A stretch of DNA of 64,000 nucleotides from Rossellomorea marisflavi (GTDB taxonomy: Bacteria > Bacillota > Bacilli > Bacillales > Bacillaceae_B), in NCBI RefSeq assembly GCF_022170785.1, contig NZ_CP081870.1, positions 4,216,001 through 4,280,000 on the forward strand. The letters are read 5' to 3'. The notes below the pieces were generated by a model, which saw only the letters and a list, made by a program, of their open reading frames with translations, was not told the DNA's origin and ran no database searches. Shown piece after piece: positions 9,595 to 52,509 of this stretch. Numbering within the stretch: the first letter of the stretch is position 1; every line of letters starts with the position of its first letter. The position numbers and the translations under genes were made by a program.

Positions 9595-11121
9595 ATGTTG
9601 GATGCAAATATCAAAGCACAGCTAGAACAGTATCTTCAAATGTTAGAGAGCGATATTTTGCTCAAGGTAAGTGCTGGAGACGACAAGGTATCGCATGACA
9701 TGCTTTCATTGGTGGACCAGCTTGCGACCATGTCTCCCCGCATCAAAGTGGAGAACACTGAATTGGAACGCACACCAAGCTTCAGCGTCAATCGCATCGG
9801 CGAAGACACCGGCATCACATTTGCCGGCGTCCCGCTGGGGCACGAGTTCACTTCATTGGTCCTTGCTTTGCTGCAAGTGAGCGGCAGGGCACCGAAAGTC
9901 GATCAAACCGTGATCGACCAGATCAAAAATGTGAAGGGTGAATACCACTTCGAGTCGTATATCAGCCTCACATGCCACAACTGCCCTGATGTCGTACAAG
10001 CCCTGAACATCATGAGTCTCCTCAATGACGGAATCTCTCATACGATGATCGACGGCGCTGCGTTCAAAGACGAAGTCGAAAGCAAAGAAATCATGGCGGT
10101 CCCGACTGTATTCCTTAACGGTGAAGAGTTCGGAAGCGGTCGTATGACCCTTGAAGAAATGCTGAACAAAATGGGCAGCGGCCCTGATGCAGCTGAATTC
10201 GCCGATAAAGATCCATATGATGTCCTCGTAGTCGGTGGCGGTCCCGCTGGTGCAAGTGCTGCGATCTACGCTGCGCGTAAAGGTATTCGCACCGGACTTG
10301 TAGCCGAACGCTTTGGTGGACAGGTGATGGACACCCTCGGCATCGAGAACTTCATCAGCATGACCAAGACGGAAGGTCCGAAACTTGTCGCAAGCCTCGA
10401 AGAACACGTGAAAGATTACAACATCGATGTGATGAATCTTCAGCGTGCGAAGAGCCTCGAGAAGAAAGACCTCGTCGAATTGGAACTTGAAAACGGAGCG
10501 GTCCTGAAGAGTAAGACCGTCATCCTTTCAACAGGTGCCCGCTGGCGCAACGTCGGCGTCCCTGGCGAAGCAGAATTCAAGAACAAAGGAGTCGCTTATT
10601 GCCCTCACTGTGACGGACCATTGTTCGAAGGGAAAGATGTAGCGGTCATCGGCGGAGGAAACTCCGGCGTGGAAGCAGCCATCGACCTTGCAGGGATCGT
10701 CAAGCATGTGACTGTCCTTGAATTCATGCCTGAGCTGAAAGCCGATGCTGTACTGCAGGAACGCCTTAACAGCCTTCCGAACGTTACGGTCGTGAAAAAC
10801 GCACAAACGAAAGAGATCACGGGAACCGATAAGGTGAACGGAATCACTTACATCGATCGTGCGACAGAGGAAGAACATCACGTGGAACTTGCCGGCGTAT
10901 TCGTTCAAATCGGTCTCGTGCCGAACACGGAATGGCTCGGTGACTCCCTTGAGAAAACACGCATGGGTGAGCTCGTTGTCGATAAGCATGGTGCAACCAG
11001 TATGCCTGGTGTCTTCGCTGCCGGAGACTGCACGGACAGTGCCTACAAGCAGATCATCATCTCCATGGGATCAGGTGCAACCGCATCACTTGGTGCGTTT
11101 GATTACATGATCCGGAACTAA
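9595..11121 (+). CDS. ahpF: Alkyl hydroperoxide reductase flavoprotein subunit
   Basis: A 508-residue NADH:peroxiredoxin oxidoreductase. The N-terminal tandem thioredoxin folds carry one CxxC (Cys127/Cys130 in LTCHNCPD); the FAD loop is GGGPAG at 214-219; the redox-active pair is Cys336/Cys339 in CPHCDG; the NADH loop is GGGNSG. Electrons pass from NADH through FAD and the two CxxC centres to AhpC. It is co-transcribed with ahpC. AAGGAG precedes the ATG. Confidence 0.98.
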
Positions 11122-11159
11122 CAACAATAAGGGCTGGGACAAACGTGTTTTAGTCATAG

Positions 11160-11208
11160 AAAAACCCGAATTAATTGCCGACGATCAGGCAAAATAATTC
11201 GGGTTTTT
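11160..11208 (+). terminator. Terminator of ahpCF
   Basis: AAAAACCCGAATTA (11160-11173) pairs with TAATTCGGGTTTTT (11195-11208). The preceding GGGCTGGGACAAA text is a common downstream sequence in Bacillaceae. Confidence 0.85.
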
Positions 11209-11242
11209 CATTTATTTCATGACCATTACTATTTACTTGTTT

Positions 11243-11366
11243 CTAGCGGTTGATTGGAGTGCAAGACGAAGACTCCTGCGGGAAGTGTAGCTGATGTGAG
11301 ACCCCGCAGGCTTGCCGAGGAGGCTCACGGGCTACCCGCGGAAAGCGAAGTCTTGCACGGAAATCA
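11243..11366. repeat. Bacillaceae palindromic repeat, copy 1
   Basis: A G/C-rich structured repeat of about 120 bases. Outer stem GTGCAAGAC (11259-11267) with GTCTTGCAC (11350-11358); inner stem GTGAG (11296-11300) with CTCAC (11324-11328). The core has GACCCCGCAGGC (11300-11311) and GAGGAGGCTC (11317-11326), both found unchanged in copy 2 near 44.3 kb. The type, with CTCCTGCGGG near the 5' side and GCGGAAAGCG near the 3' side, is familiar from many Bacillaceae intergenic regions. Open frames through it are artefacts. Confidence 0.75.
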
Positions 11367-11430
11367 TAAGCGGTATAAAGAGCCTATACTGATAGTGTGC
11401 GCCAGTTTATTGTGGATTTTGAAAAGGGAG

Positions 11431-13077
11431 CTATTTCGCTTCCTTCAACGCTTTCTCCGACACATAGAAGTCTTTTCCGTTATACACCGTTACCCCATCG
11501 AGGGTCTTCGTTTTAGACTTTTTCTTATCCGTCACCGTGACGATATTCTTATTCGCGGGCACTTCAATTTTCTTCTTATTCTTCTCGGCCACGAATACCG
11601 GATTGTTCTCATCCGTTACATCAATACGGGTTTTGTAGCCTTTTTTCTCAAAGGATTCCCTTGCATTGACGAATAATTTGTCCGTTGTCTTCTCCAGGTT
11701 CACACCCATGAAATCAGCCATCTTCTTCGGCAGGTCGGTGTTCTCTACCATTCCGTATGGTCTGGACGGTCCATAGGCGTACAGGAATACATCCTCACCC
11801 GTGTGCCCGCCTGTGGTGAAGCCAAGGTTCGCACGGCTTGCAAGCATTTTGGAAAGGTCTCCGTTCAGGTTCTTCGATGCCTTCAGGGCTTCAATCTCTT
11901 CCTTCGTGAGGTTATCCAGCCCATAGAGAGCGGCGACCTGCTTCATATTCGAGCGATCGGCTTTGAGCTTACCTGTCGCTCCTTCAAGGGTCATGCTCGC
12001 CTTTTTCAAAGGATCGATATAAGCTGAAACCGGTGTGCTTGGGTAACTTGCGTTCGTGTTGACATTCCCCATGGTGACCCCGCTGTTCCCGTGATCGGAT
12101 ACGGCAATGACCATGGTGTTGCCATCTTTTTTGGCAAATTCCAGCGCTTCATTGACCGCATCATCGAATGCGAGTACATCCCCGATCATACCGATTGGAT
12201 CGTTGGCGTGGGCCGCCCAGTCGACCTTGCTTCCCTCTACGAATAGGAAGAATCCTTCTTTATTCTTGGAAAGGGTATCGATCCCTTTCTTCGTCATCTC
12301 GGCAAGCGTCGGTTCGTTTTTGCGCGTCTTCTCACGGTCGATATCATACGCCATGGCAGAAGGGGCAAACGCTCCCCAAAGCTTCTTGGAGTTCGACTTC
12401 ATGAGGTCTTTGCGTGTTTCCACGACGTCATAGCCTTTGGAATCGATCACATCGAGGAGATTTTCCCCATCTTTTCTACCTGCTGGAGTGAGGGATTCCT
12501 TCCCACCGCCTAGAACGACATCGATCCCTTGATACACCTGCTGTTCGGCAATGTCATTGTAGTTGCTGCGATGTGGTGCGTGAGAAGAGAAACCGGCCGG
12601 AGTGGCGTGCTGGATCTCGGATGTAGAAATGATTCCCGTGGATTTCCCTTTAAGTTTGGCTGCTTCGAGTACATTGGCCACAGGCCGTAATTGGTCTTCC
12701 TCTTTGATCTGTTCCACTCCCGGAGAACTGACCACTTTAGGAAGAAGGCCAACGACCTTATCATTGCTTTTGTTCCCTGTTGCAAGAGCGGTGGCTGCGG
12801 GTGCTGAATCCGTAATCGCCGACTCTGCTGAATATGTACGGACGCCGCCGATGGCGATCTCATCCATAGCCAAGTCCTCCCCCTTGTACCAACGGGCGAG
12901 TGATGTTGCCCCGGCACTTGTCCCATCCATGACCATCATGATCACGTTGGTCGGTTCCTTCTTCTTGTCCTTAGCTTCCACCTCAGTCTTCACTGATCCT
13001 GCAAAGCCCAGTGATGAAAAAGCCAGAGCGGCGGCCAATGATAGGCCGGTCACCTTTTTCGTACTCATTCGTCCCAT
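11431..13077 (-). CDS. phoA: PhoA-type alkaline phosphatase, secreted
   Basis: A 548-residue alkaline phosphatase that hydrolyses phosphate monoesters outside the cell. A metal-binding Asp is seen at residue 51 (VMDGTSAG) and the nucleophile Ser91 in TDSAPAATALATG; later metal ligands occur in SDHGNS and in the TGGHTGED element. A signal peptide spans the first 35 residues. The start at 13077 is preferred to 13098 because GGAGGAG lies just upstream of it. The last 100 residues form a tail beyond the catalytic core. The Pho-box ladder upstream predicts PhoPR control. Confidence 0.9.
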   Translation of the reverse strand: MGRMSTKKVTGLSLAAALAFSSLGFAGSVKTEVEAKDKKKEPTNVIMMVMDGTSAGATSLARWYKGEDLAMDEIAIGGVRTYSAESAITDSAPAATALATGNKSNDKVVGLLPKVVSSPGVEQIKEEDQLRPVANVLEAAKLKGKSTGIISTSEIQHATPAGFSSHAPHRSNYNDIAEQQVYQGIDVVLGGGKESLTPAGRKDGENLLDVIDSKGYDVVETRKDLMKSNSKKLWGAFAPSAMAYDIDREKTRKNEPTLAEMTKKGIDTLSKNKEGFFLFVEGSKVDWAAHANDPIGMIGDVLAFDDAVNEALEFAKKDGNTMVIAVSDHGNSGVTMGNVNTNASYPSTPVSAYIDPLKKASMTLEGATGKLKADRSNMKQVAALYGLDNLTKEEIEALKASKNLNGDLSKMLASRANLGFTTGGHTGEDVFLYAYGPSRPYGMVENTDLPKKMADFMGVNLEKTTDKLFVNARESFEKKGYKTRIDVTDENNPVFVAEKNKKKIEVPANKNIVTVTDKKKSKTKTLDGVTVYNGKDFYVSEKALKEAK

Positions 13078-14709: not shown

Positions 14710-14835
14710 TATAGATCTCCCCTCGTTCGGAAAATCCATACCCGGTACCCTTCTGTCCTTTTGCCTGAGATTGTGAACCCTTCGGCGCCGCTTGAATAGC
14801 GGTCTCTCCAGAAGCTGCTCCTGCTGTAGTGTGAC
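14710..14835 (-). ncRNA. Glycine riboswitch
   Basis: Read on minus, conserved glycine-aptamer blocks appear in order: CTGGAGAGACCG, GGCGCCGAAGG, and AATCTCAGGCAAAAGGACAG. These are the hallmark words of the gcvT-type aptamer. Only one full aptamer is seen; flanking bases may form the ghost aptamer of a singlet switch. The edges are approximate. With the terminator downstream, glycine binding should allow transcription of the permease. Confidence 0.9.
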
Positions 14836-44034: not shown

Positions 44035-44274
44035 CTATTCTTCATCCTTTCTCCATTATTAGTCCATTCGTTAGTTTTTCTTTACTACCCTCATTATAGT
44101 CAGATTAAATTAGAAACTGATGAAAAAAAAGTAAGAAAACCATGATGATATAGAGGCAATTTTGTGAACATTCAAGGTGCAAAAACCCATATTTTCTATT
44201 CAACACACAACTAAGATTGGGGGAAAGAGGATTGATCAATACACTAACACCTCATATCAACCACTAGTGCAGTG

Positions 44275-44387
44275 CAGCGAAGGCCGACCGACTCCCGCGG
44301 AAACCAGAGGAAAGGTCGAGACCCCGCAGGCACGAGGAGGCTCGACTTCCTCTCCGCAGGAAAGCGGTCGGCCGAAGCGGAACGAAA
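44275..44387. repeat. Bacillaceae palindromic repeat, copy 2
   Basis: The same type as at 11.3 kb. Outer stem GGCCGACCG (44282-44290) with CGGTCGGCC (44365-44373); inner stem GTCGAG (44315-44320) with CTCGAC (44341-44346); shared core GACCCCGCAGGC (44320-44331) and GAGGAGGCTC (44334-44343). Stem sequences differ from copy 1 but remain paired. Confidence 0.75.
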
Positions 44388-44434
44388 CATCCCATCTCAA
44401 AACGCTCTCTATCAGCTATACCTGATTAAAATAC

Positions 44435-51909: not shown

Positions 51910-51982
51910 TGGCTCAGGACAGAATCGAACTGCCGACACATGGATTTTCAGTCCATTGCTCTACCAACTGAGCTACTGAGCC
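51910..51982 (-). tRNA. tRNA-Phe (GAA)
   Basis: Acceptor stem GGCTCAG/CTGAGCC, TAGCTCAGTTGGTAGAGC D-arm, anticodon loop ACTGAAAATCC with GAA, and a T-arm with TTCGATTC. CCA is not encoded. Last of four tRNAs. Confidence 0.96.
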
Positions 51983-51997
51983 ACAATATGAAAATGG

Positions 51998-52071
51998 CGG
52001 TCCGGACGGGACTCGAACCCGCGACCTCCTGCGTGACAGGCAGGCATTCTAACCAACTGAACTACCGGACC
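51998..52071 (-). tRNA. tRNA-Asp (GTC)
   Basis: Acceptor GGTCCGG/CCGGACC with G discriminator, D-arm TAGTTCAGTTGGTTAGAA, anticodon loop CCTGTCACGC with GTC, T-loop TTCGAGTC. CCA is not encoded. Confidence 0.96.
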
Positions 52072-52073
52072 AG

Positions 52074-52190
52074 AGCTTTTTGCGATAGCAAAATAGCTAT
52101 CATTAGTATTCGCCTTAGCGAAGATAAAGGACATTAGCTTTGCTTCAGCAAAAGAGCTGTCATTGCCCTTTCGCGTTAGCGAGGAAAAAT
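52074..52190 (-). repeat. Four-unit hairpin array inside the tRNA cluster
   Basis: On minus, four units of about 30 bases follow each other, most beginning AATGA or AATGT and each holding a small stem-loop: CTCGCTAACGCGAAAG, TTTGCTGAAGCAAAG, TTCGCTAAGGCGAAT and TTTGCTATCGCAAAA. The arms switch together between TTTGC/GCAAA and TTCGC/GCGAA, so pairing is kept. An open frame through it reads repeated F-A-x-A-K, but has no ribosome site and crosses tRNA-Asp. Confidence 0.6.
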
Positions 52191-52351
52191 CTACTACACA
52201 TTCGTGAACCATACTCGACATGGATGCCATGCATCCCACATCAAACGCCGAAACCTTTTAATTCCGGAAAATTTCGACAAATCACGAATAAAAATTTGCG
52301 ACCCACATGGTGGATCGTCTATTTTTAAATCCCTATGAAGGAATGAAAAAA

Positions 52352-52423
52352 TGACCCGTACGGGATTCGAACCCGTGTTACCGCCGTGAAAGGGCGGTGT
52401 CTTAACCGCTTGACCAACGGGCC
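52352..52423 (-). tRNA. tRNA-Glu (TTC)
   Basis: Acceptor GGCCCGT with GACCCGT partner arm on plus at 52353-52359, anticodon loop CCTTTCACG with TTC, T-loop TTCGAATC, A discriminator. CCA is not encoded. Confidence 0.96.
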
Positions 52424-52436
52424 ACAAAAATAATGG

Positions 52437-52509
52437 TGAGCCATGAAGGATTCGAACCTTCGACCCTCTGATTAAAAGTCAGATGCTCTACCAACTGAGC
52501 TAATGGCTC
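52437..52509 (-). tRNA. tRNA-Lys (TTT)
   Basis: Acceptor GAGCCAT/ATGGCTC, D-arm TAGCTCAGTTGGTAGAGC, anticodon loop CTTTTAATC with TTT, T-loop TTCGAATC. First of the cluster Lys-Glu-Asp-Phe, which equals the order of trnY in B. subtilis. Confidence 0.96.

Follow-up and report, generated by a model that had tools for sequence, protein, structure and literature searches.

The genome of Rossellomorea marisflavi contains, 33 kb apart in the window analysed here (64,000 nucleotides of contig NZ_CP081870.1, positions 4,216,001 to 4,280,000), two copies of a structured sequence, at 11243-11366 and 44275-44387. Both were found again as first described, sharing their core words exactly, with stems that have changed in sequence and kept their pairing. 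The original prediction saw in them a folded RNA or DNA of a type common in Bacillaceae. What kind of element is this repeat, is it as RNA or as DNA that its fold matters, and how did it reach its present sites? The reading that we consider probable, if well short of certain, is that of a small mobile DNA element, non-autonomous, with an imperfect hairpin core of about 120 bp that is maintained as DNA. In subfamily A, to which the 11.2-kb copy belongs, the core would lie within IS1182-type ends and be moved in trans; subfamily B (the 44-kb copy) would multiply by tandem duplication.

A widespread repeat family in Bacillales

Both structured cores lie on the forward strand. The subfamily A core extends over 11249..11367 (covariance-model match 11241-11382, E 1.4e-33). 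Its outer stem P1 pairs the 5' arm GTGCAAGAC (11259..11267) with the 3' arm GTCTTGCAC (11350..11358), an assignment based on sequence and covariation, and encloses P4 with the conserved apical part, GTGAG-ACCCCGCAGG..GAGGAGG-CTCAC (11296..11328), defined from sequence and alignment; the invariance of this part is partly due to ascertainment, as the aligned copies were filtered by words. The subfamily B core, present here as a single copy, covers 44259..44402 (E 2.8e-37), and its P1, read from sequence, joins GGCCGACCG (44282..44290) to CGGTCGGCC (44365..44373).

An exact-word pattern retrieved 52 copies in the 4.31-Mb source genome (hereafter G000; G044 and G045 are two close relatives and L-numbers designate loci), and the reversed pattern, used as a control, retrieved none. 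With a covariance model the count rises to at least 150 (150 of 1059 candidates were scored). Core words occurred in 29 of 41 genomes of a first set of relatives, G000 included, and control words in none. In an order-wide sample, the model matched 91 of 120 genomes (E <=1e-6) and 57 of 73 genera. In a separate scan, which gave at least 120 loci, carriers among the 80 loci named include Rossellomorea, Sutcliffiella, Neobacillus, Peribacillus, Sporosarcina, Planococcus and Halobacillus. The flank of one relative's copy (L077) is identical to that of R. vietnamensis L150. The repeat is thus common in Bacillaceae, as anticipated, and in their relatives too.

Rfam contained nothing at gathering score for either repeat place in the window. 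The supposition that the function of the repeat is not established agrees with the open-access papers that we searched, using sequence words, Bacillaceae REP/RAYT and palindromic repeats, MITEs in terminators, and IS1182: judged by title and beginning of abstract, none of those listed describes it. In the Bacillus cereus group, the bcr repeats are also interspersed, and some of them are said to fold; the likeness is one of general description.

Outside chromosomes, the repeat matched no phage record. Two viral-contig matches (L206, L207) lacked the fold and did not differ from one another over the stretch compared, and a third (L208) lay too close to the contig end. Nineteen plasmid records carry the repeat. 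Among the three that were opened, those of B. subtilis and Paenibacillus urinalis contain the same zwf-gnd gene set, and for that reason look like one shared cassette and not like fresh insertions; in the third, a 1.6-kb Planococcus record, a metallo-hydrolase is the sole gene listed. Two matches, L097 and L151, from a Gemmatimonadales record did not pass the CTCC/GGAAA/edge filter and are apparently due to chance. A well-formed core copy occurs in a record titled Arthrobacter beigongshangensis (L152, 4539-4690). Some copies are chimeric, with another recurrent piece in place of the 5' arm (L090, L093, L103, L105, L125, L160, L173, L183); several of them contain CATTTTCTTCGTGCG and all contain GTCCTGCGGG or a similar word. 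The window also holds, at 14743-14821 and 51910-52509, a glycine riboswitch aptamer and four tRNA genes.

Subfamily A copies stand in place of terminator-like hairpins

A larger insertion with an IS1182-type end (GGGCTGGGACA) contains the 11.2-kb copy as its inner part, a point that the original prediction overlooked. This insertion of about 273 bp (11131..11404, forward strand, edges good to a few bases) is missing in G044 and G045, whose sequences match up to position 633 of the query and resume at 907, with 24 bp between and flanks 95-97% identical. The 24 bp, together with their flanks, form a 36-nt terminator-like hairpin between an AhpF-like gene (ahpF) and an alkaline phosphatase gene (phoA). 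The insertion has replaced this hairpin, which G044 and G045 have kept. The order of events at the window site, terminator first, was checked in further species: the model found nothing at the ahpF-phoA site in 26 further congener loci, nor in G044 or G045, and several of the 26 visibly keep a simple terminator. The terminator that follows ahpF in a number of congeners itself looks like a repeated hairpin, of the form AGAGGTCCGTCCCTC..GAGGGACGGACCTCT (L285, L288, L290, L292, L294, L295, L296, L297, L306, L307).

Twenty of the 24 other A copies have an orthologous site in the G045 stretches compared, and four have none. At these 20 sites, G045 lacks the element altogether in 11 cases, has an older A copy alone in one (L213) and has the element in some form in eight, among which L025 is inverted, L004 is interrupted and L219 lacks its core in G045. 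The insertion that interrupts L004 contains transposase-type ORFs with rve and HTH_Tnp_1 domains, and the G045 orthologue of L025 (L345) has its A element in the opposite orientation at the same site. Comparison of L213 (G000) with L351 (G045) reveals a nested insertion, in which a younger A element took the place of an older one's subterminal hairpin.

All 12 element-free sites (11 in G045 and the window site in G044) have a terminator-like hairpin, with stem scores of 8 to 18.5 and 11 of 12 at >=9.5; the least exact is L214, where G045 has 196 bp between the matched flanks. A score of 9 was reached by 35 of 600 random control segments. In a more stringent control, made of segments just after the stop codons of long open frames, 88 of 281 reached 9.5 (p 2e-5 for 11 of 12). 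When the relatives' hairpin was sought in the G000 locus, it was absent in 12 of 12 cases, with scores at the level of shuffled hairpins. A copies thus stand where relatives keep terminator-like hairpins.

The ends of subfamily A resemble those of IS1182-type elements

The insertion in the window begins with a left terminal repeat, GGGCTGGGACAAAC (11131..11144), the same word that ends PF13751 insertion sequences (ISs) of congeners, followed by an inverted repeat forming a subterminal terminator-like hairpin, GAAAAACCCGAATTAATT/AAATAATTCGGGTTTTTC (11159..11209). The right terminal repeat has been lost in the window copy and is present in sister A copies. Across 25 aligned A copies, the unit of about 270-300 bp consists of a left end AGAGGCTGGGACAA, the terminator-like hairpin, the core and a right end TTGTCCCAATCTCTTT. 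With at most one mismatch, 16 of 25 copies have the left end word, four have the right one and 16 have one or the other; with up to three mismatches, 15 of 25 have both.

PF13751 is the domain that we take to be the mark of the IS1182 family. Five full PF13751 ISs of the genus (L364, L368, L369, L371, L379) end in GAGGCTGGGACA, with GCTGGGACAAAA in L371, so that ends of the GAGGCTGGGACA type are common to them and to subfamily A. A terminator-like hairpin is also present in these ISs, in a position equivalent to that in the A element. They differ from it in length (about 1.8 kb for the five measured, against about 273 bp) and in content, as they carry a transposase where the A element carries the core. 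Indeed, the 273-bp insertion includes no transposase gene, all Pfam-matched genes lying outside it. Nor did we find a PF13751 gene in G000, G044 or G045, so that an IS1182 transposase as partner is inferred from the ends alone; the domain is present in 17 of 36 genomes of the genus.

Further afield, 9 of 49 PF13751 loci scanned across the order have IS1182-type ends. In Sporosarcina sp. P2 (L112), a unit of about 275 bp with both end words around a B-like core has the same composite build. Among 111 copies taken from named records, four have both IS1182 end words around the core, and none has them in inverted order; neither end word is present in 36 of 52 G000 copies and 105 of the 111. Core and PF13751 showed no association in a co-occurrence test on 111 of the 120 sampled genomes, nine without a match having been left out (53/91 vs 13/20, Fisher p 0.62). 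A second kind of PF13751 IS has inner ends CAGTTTGTAGACAAA or alike and CAGACTGTAGACAAA, with palindromes on its flanks, and looks inserted beside or between the arms of stem-loops (L445, L446, L451, L453, L457, L476, L479).

A precedent for such insertions exists in staphylococci. IS1272 and TnSha1, of the IS1182 family, target stem-loops including terminators, remove all or part of them and leave no target duplication, according to two articles (PMC5678879, PMC4923244). Subfamily A is similar in that a stem-loop is replaced and no target duplication is seen, the latter checked at the window copy, where a search over 11100-11460 found no direct repeats. Subfamily A differs in having no transposase and in containing a structured core, and the likeness concerns insertion mode, not the ends of IS1272; GGGACA has no match in the IS1272 paper. 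Family A would be a new and small version, lacking a transposase, of a known structure-targeting transposon type.

The sequence of events that we propose starts with an IS1182-family transposase, which G000 lacks and other species of the genus have, and which would have acted in trans on the GAGGCTGGGACA ends. By analogy with the staphylococcal elements, the enzyme may have picked a stem-loop as target and removed it, in an inverted-repeat-replacing transposition. The terminator-like hairpin brought by the A element would then spare the neighbouring genes.

Cores within other ends and in arrays

The core seems to move about within ends of several kinds. Inverted outer repeats scoring >=12 flank 12 of 140 copies from relatives and named records, against 6 of 700 shuffled-flank controls. 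The recurrent outer words are GGCTGTGTTAA, GCCACTGAAAA, GGCT[GC]TTTTC and the IS1182 word; among the loci named, GGCTGTGTTAA is mostly found in Neobacillus and Bacillus and GCCACTGAAAA mostly in Sutcliffiella. These classes were in part defined on the loci in which they were then counted; an independent test is given only by the IS1182 word, which was taken from the ISs. Like bacterial MITEs such as the pneumococcal RUP (PMC3049150), the element is short, non-autonomous, base-paired and present in many copies with IS-like ends; it is distinguished by the recurrence of its inner core in several genera within different ends and by the compensated stems of that core.

These observations allow a broader interpretation, which we regard as possible though somewhat doubtful: the core may be a Bacillales-wide DNA module selected as a hairpin or cruciform, repackaged in different IS ends (GAGGCTGGGACA, GGCTGTGTTAA, GCCACTGAAAA and others) as a passenger of unrelated MITE ends that is recognised by its shape, and also spreading alone in divergent arrays.

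Subfamily B behaves differently from A. The 44-kb copy lies between a still-present walJ terminator hairpin and htrA, so that no terminator was replaced there. None of 27 B copies has both IS1182-type ends, even with up to three mismatches, and neither end word occurs in any of the 27 with at most one mismatch. Intact B copies at the 44-kb locus were found, among 29 congener loci, only in G045 (two in tandem) and G044 (four in tandem, 210 bp apart). Weak model matches occurred at L316 and L319 (E 2e-5 and 3e-4), L316 being an A-like, degenerate copy located in this intergenic region.

The 44-kb type also forms tandem, divergently ordered arrays, which had been overlooked. The 150 scored G000 copies fall into 86 groups, and 32 of these contain two or more copies. 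Among the 64 neighbouring pairs, 30 are minus-minus, 18 plus-plus, 16 minus-plus and none plus-minus (two-sided p 3e-5 for 16 vs 0); minus-then-plus neighbours are seen at 464, 564, 626, 677, 3548 and 3977 kb of G000 C1, and elsewhere. Matched array loci, compared apart from the orthologous sites L272 and L277, are largely common to G045, with different copy numbers. Subfamily B, having no IS1182-type ends, would multiply by tandem duplication of a unit of about 200-230 bp. Such duplication accounts for the direct repeats in arrays; the exclusively divergent order of opposite neighbours stays outside that explanation.

Covariation of the core stems suggests a DNA hairpin

In a first alignment restricted to G000 (51 of the 52 pattern copies, one truncated copy being omitted), covariation was blurred by a one-column shift of P1 between subfamilies, and a wider set was therefore used. 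Out of 207 candidate places, 140 were kept and 67 dropped (contig edge, no CTCC or no GGAAA); removal of near-duplicates left 76, and exclusion of L001 and L107 and addition of the window A copy gave 75. In this diverse set, both sides change in 29 of 37 pairs, with 341 cells against 101 in shuffles. The conserved fold with compensating stems is thereby borne out.

Covariation by itself does not distinguish RNA from DNA. Were the fold used as RNA, one-sided changes on the transcribed strand should give G.U more often than A.C. The ratio of G.T to A.C one-sided pairs was 30:43 in the 75 cross-species copies, 52:33 in 125 G000 copies (distinct rows from 141 matches) and 38:0 in 30 SAM riboswitches. 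With a looser cut it was 62:75 in the cross-species set, 77:94 in G000 copies and 47:1 in SAM riboswitches. The riboswitches, the 30 best-scoring loci from 13 genomes, have a predicted structure and a cleaner alignment, which makes them an imperfectly matched control; the structure of the repeat was drawn by hand and its alignment is noisier (108 other mismatches), and its G.T and A.C counts are about what noise from other mismatches would give. As the pairing is almost strictly Watson-Crick and G.T is no commoner than A.C, the core resembles a DNA hairpin and not an RNA. The DNA half of the original alternative, "folded RNA or DNA", is thus the better fit, and the RNA half is disfavoured by the missing excess of G.T.

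The course of compensation provides a second line of evidence. Among G000 copies, the fully compensated share of changed stem pairs rises with divergence, from 7.5 through 18 and 37 to 47%; in the two most distant bins it is 44 and 41%, the sequence pairs counted being non-independent. This bears on the view that the stems covary without selection, through template switching during replication (palindrome correction) that rewrites one arm from the other. Nearly strict Watson-Crick compensation is what such rewriting would produce, but instant copying from arm to arm should yield double changes from the start, whereas close copies differ mainly on one side, the closest pairs being only 7.5% compensated, and double changes build up with divergence. 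The recurrence of loop words despite stem turnover, although ascertainment is partly behind their invariance, also argues against it, and we hold template switching to be unlikely. The simplest reading is slow selection for Watson-Crick pairs within a DNA hairpin, acting on those copies from which others descend: in these, the arms would have to pair as DNA, in a hairpin or cruciform, and single copies would decay one side at a time.

A structured RNA, either a small RNA or a cis-element selected for its fold, appears slightly less probable still. Strong covariation and conserved internal loops are what one would look for in such an RNA, and tsr24 of S. aureus has a weak full-length similarity to two A loci, with E 0.03 and 0.13, under the gathering threshold. 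Identity with tsr24 was rejected, given the score below threshold and a literature search that returned nothing relevant. The structured RNA is opposed by the G.T to A.C ratio, so different from that of the SAM riboswitches and showing no particular tolerance of G.U, by the lack of an Rfam match at threshold in the window, and by the occurrence of arrays with changing copy numbers. In addition, no rule or favoured orientation relative to neighbouring genes was seen for the arrays in 20 clusters, on crude gene calls.

Host function and REP-like mobility

The repeat could instead be a DNA site of architectural or regulatory use to the host, of the gyrase/BIME kind or a terminator cassette, which spreads by selection and not selfishly. 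Its intergenic position in the clusters examined, the array loci held in common with G045 and the terminator-like hairpins that family A brings would suit such a role, to which lineage-specific gains and losses and variable array sizes are opposed; we grant it the same low likelihood as a structured RNA.

Less credible again is the remaining proposal, that of REP/REPIN sequences mobilised through a Y1 transposase of the RAYT type, to which the high copy number and the palindromic, intergenic copies with inverted pairs in arrays do lend a resemblance, but which is contradicted by the insertion of family A through terminator replacement and by the location of the sole Y1_Tnp match in the genome. 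The REP-associated transposase partner that the original prediction proposed to look for did not materialise: this match (C1:3594364, L051) is not flanked by the core repeat and adjoins its own 25-nt GTACCTGGCACC array. With no RAYT link found, a core of about 120 bp and inverted neighbours that are divergent only, the repeat differs from REP/REPIN sequences. The array beside Y1_Tnp (L051, 1030-1290; G000 C1 about 3593.9-3594.1 kb) is built of GTGCCTGGCACC/GTACCTGGCACC, further runs of which occur at about 1238.8, 3383.8 and 3879.1 kb, and this 25-nt repeat is possibly the true REP partner of Y1_Tnp.

Implications

The favoured reading, a mobile DNA element with a hairpin core, gives a testable identity to a repeat that is very common in Bacillus-like genomes and undescribed in the literature searched. 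It would mean that small elements lacking a transposase, too, can insert by targeting structures and replacing terminators. The less expected part is the DNA-like covariation of the core and its sharing between different ends; counting G.T against A.C changes, with riboswitches as a control, offers a simple way to separate covariation at the DNA level from that at the RNA level. Should the element rewrite the ends of genes across many genomes, this would affect the annotation of terminators and comparative studies of expression.
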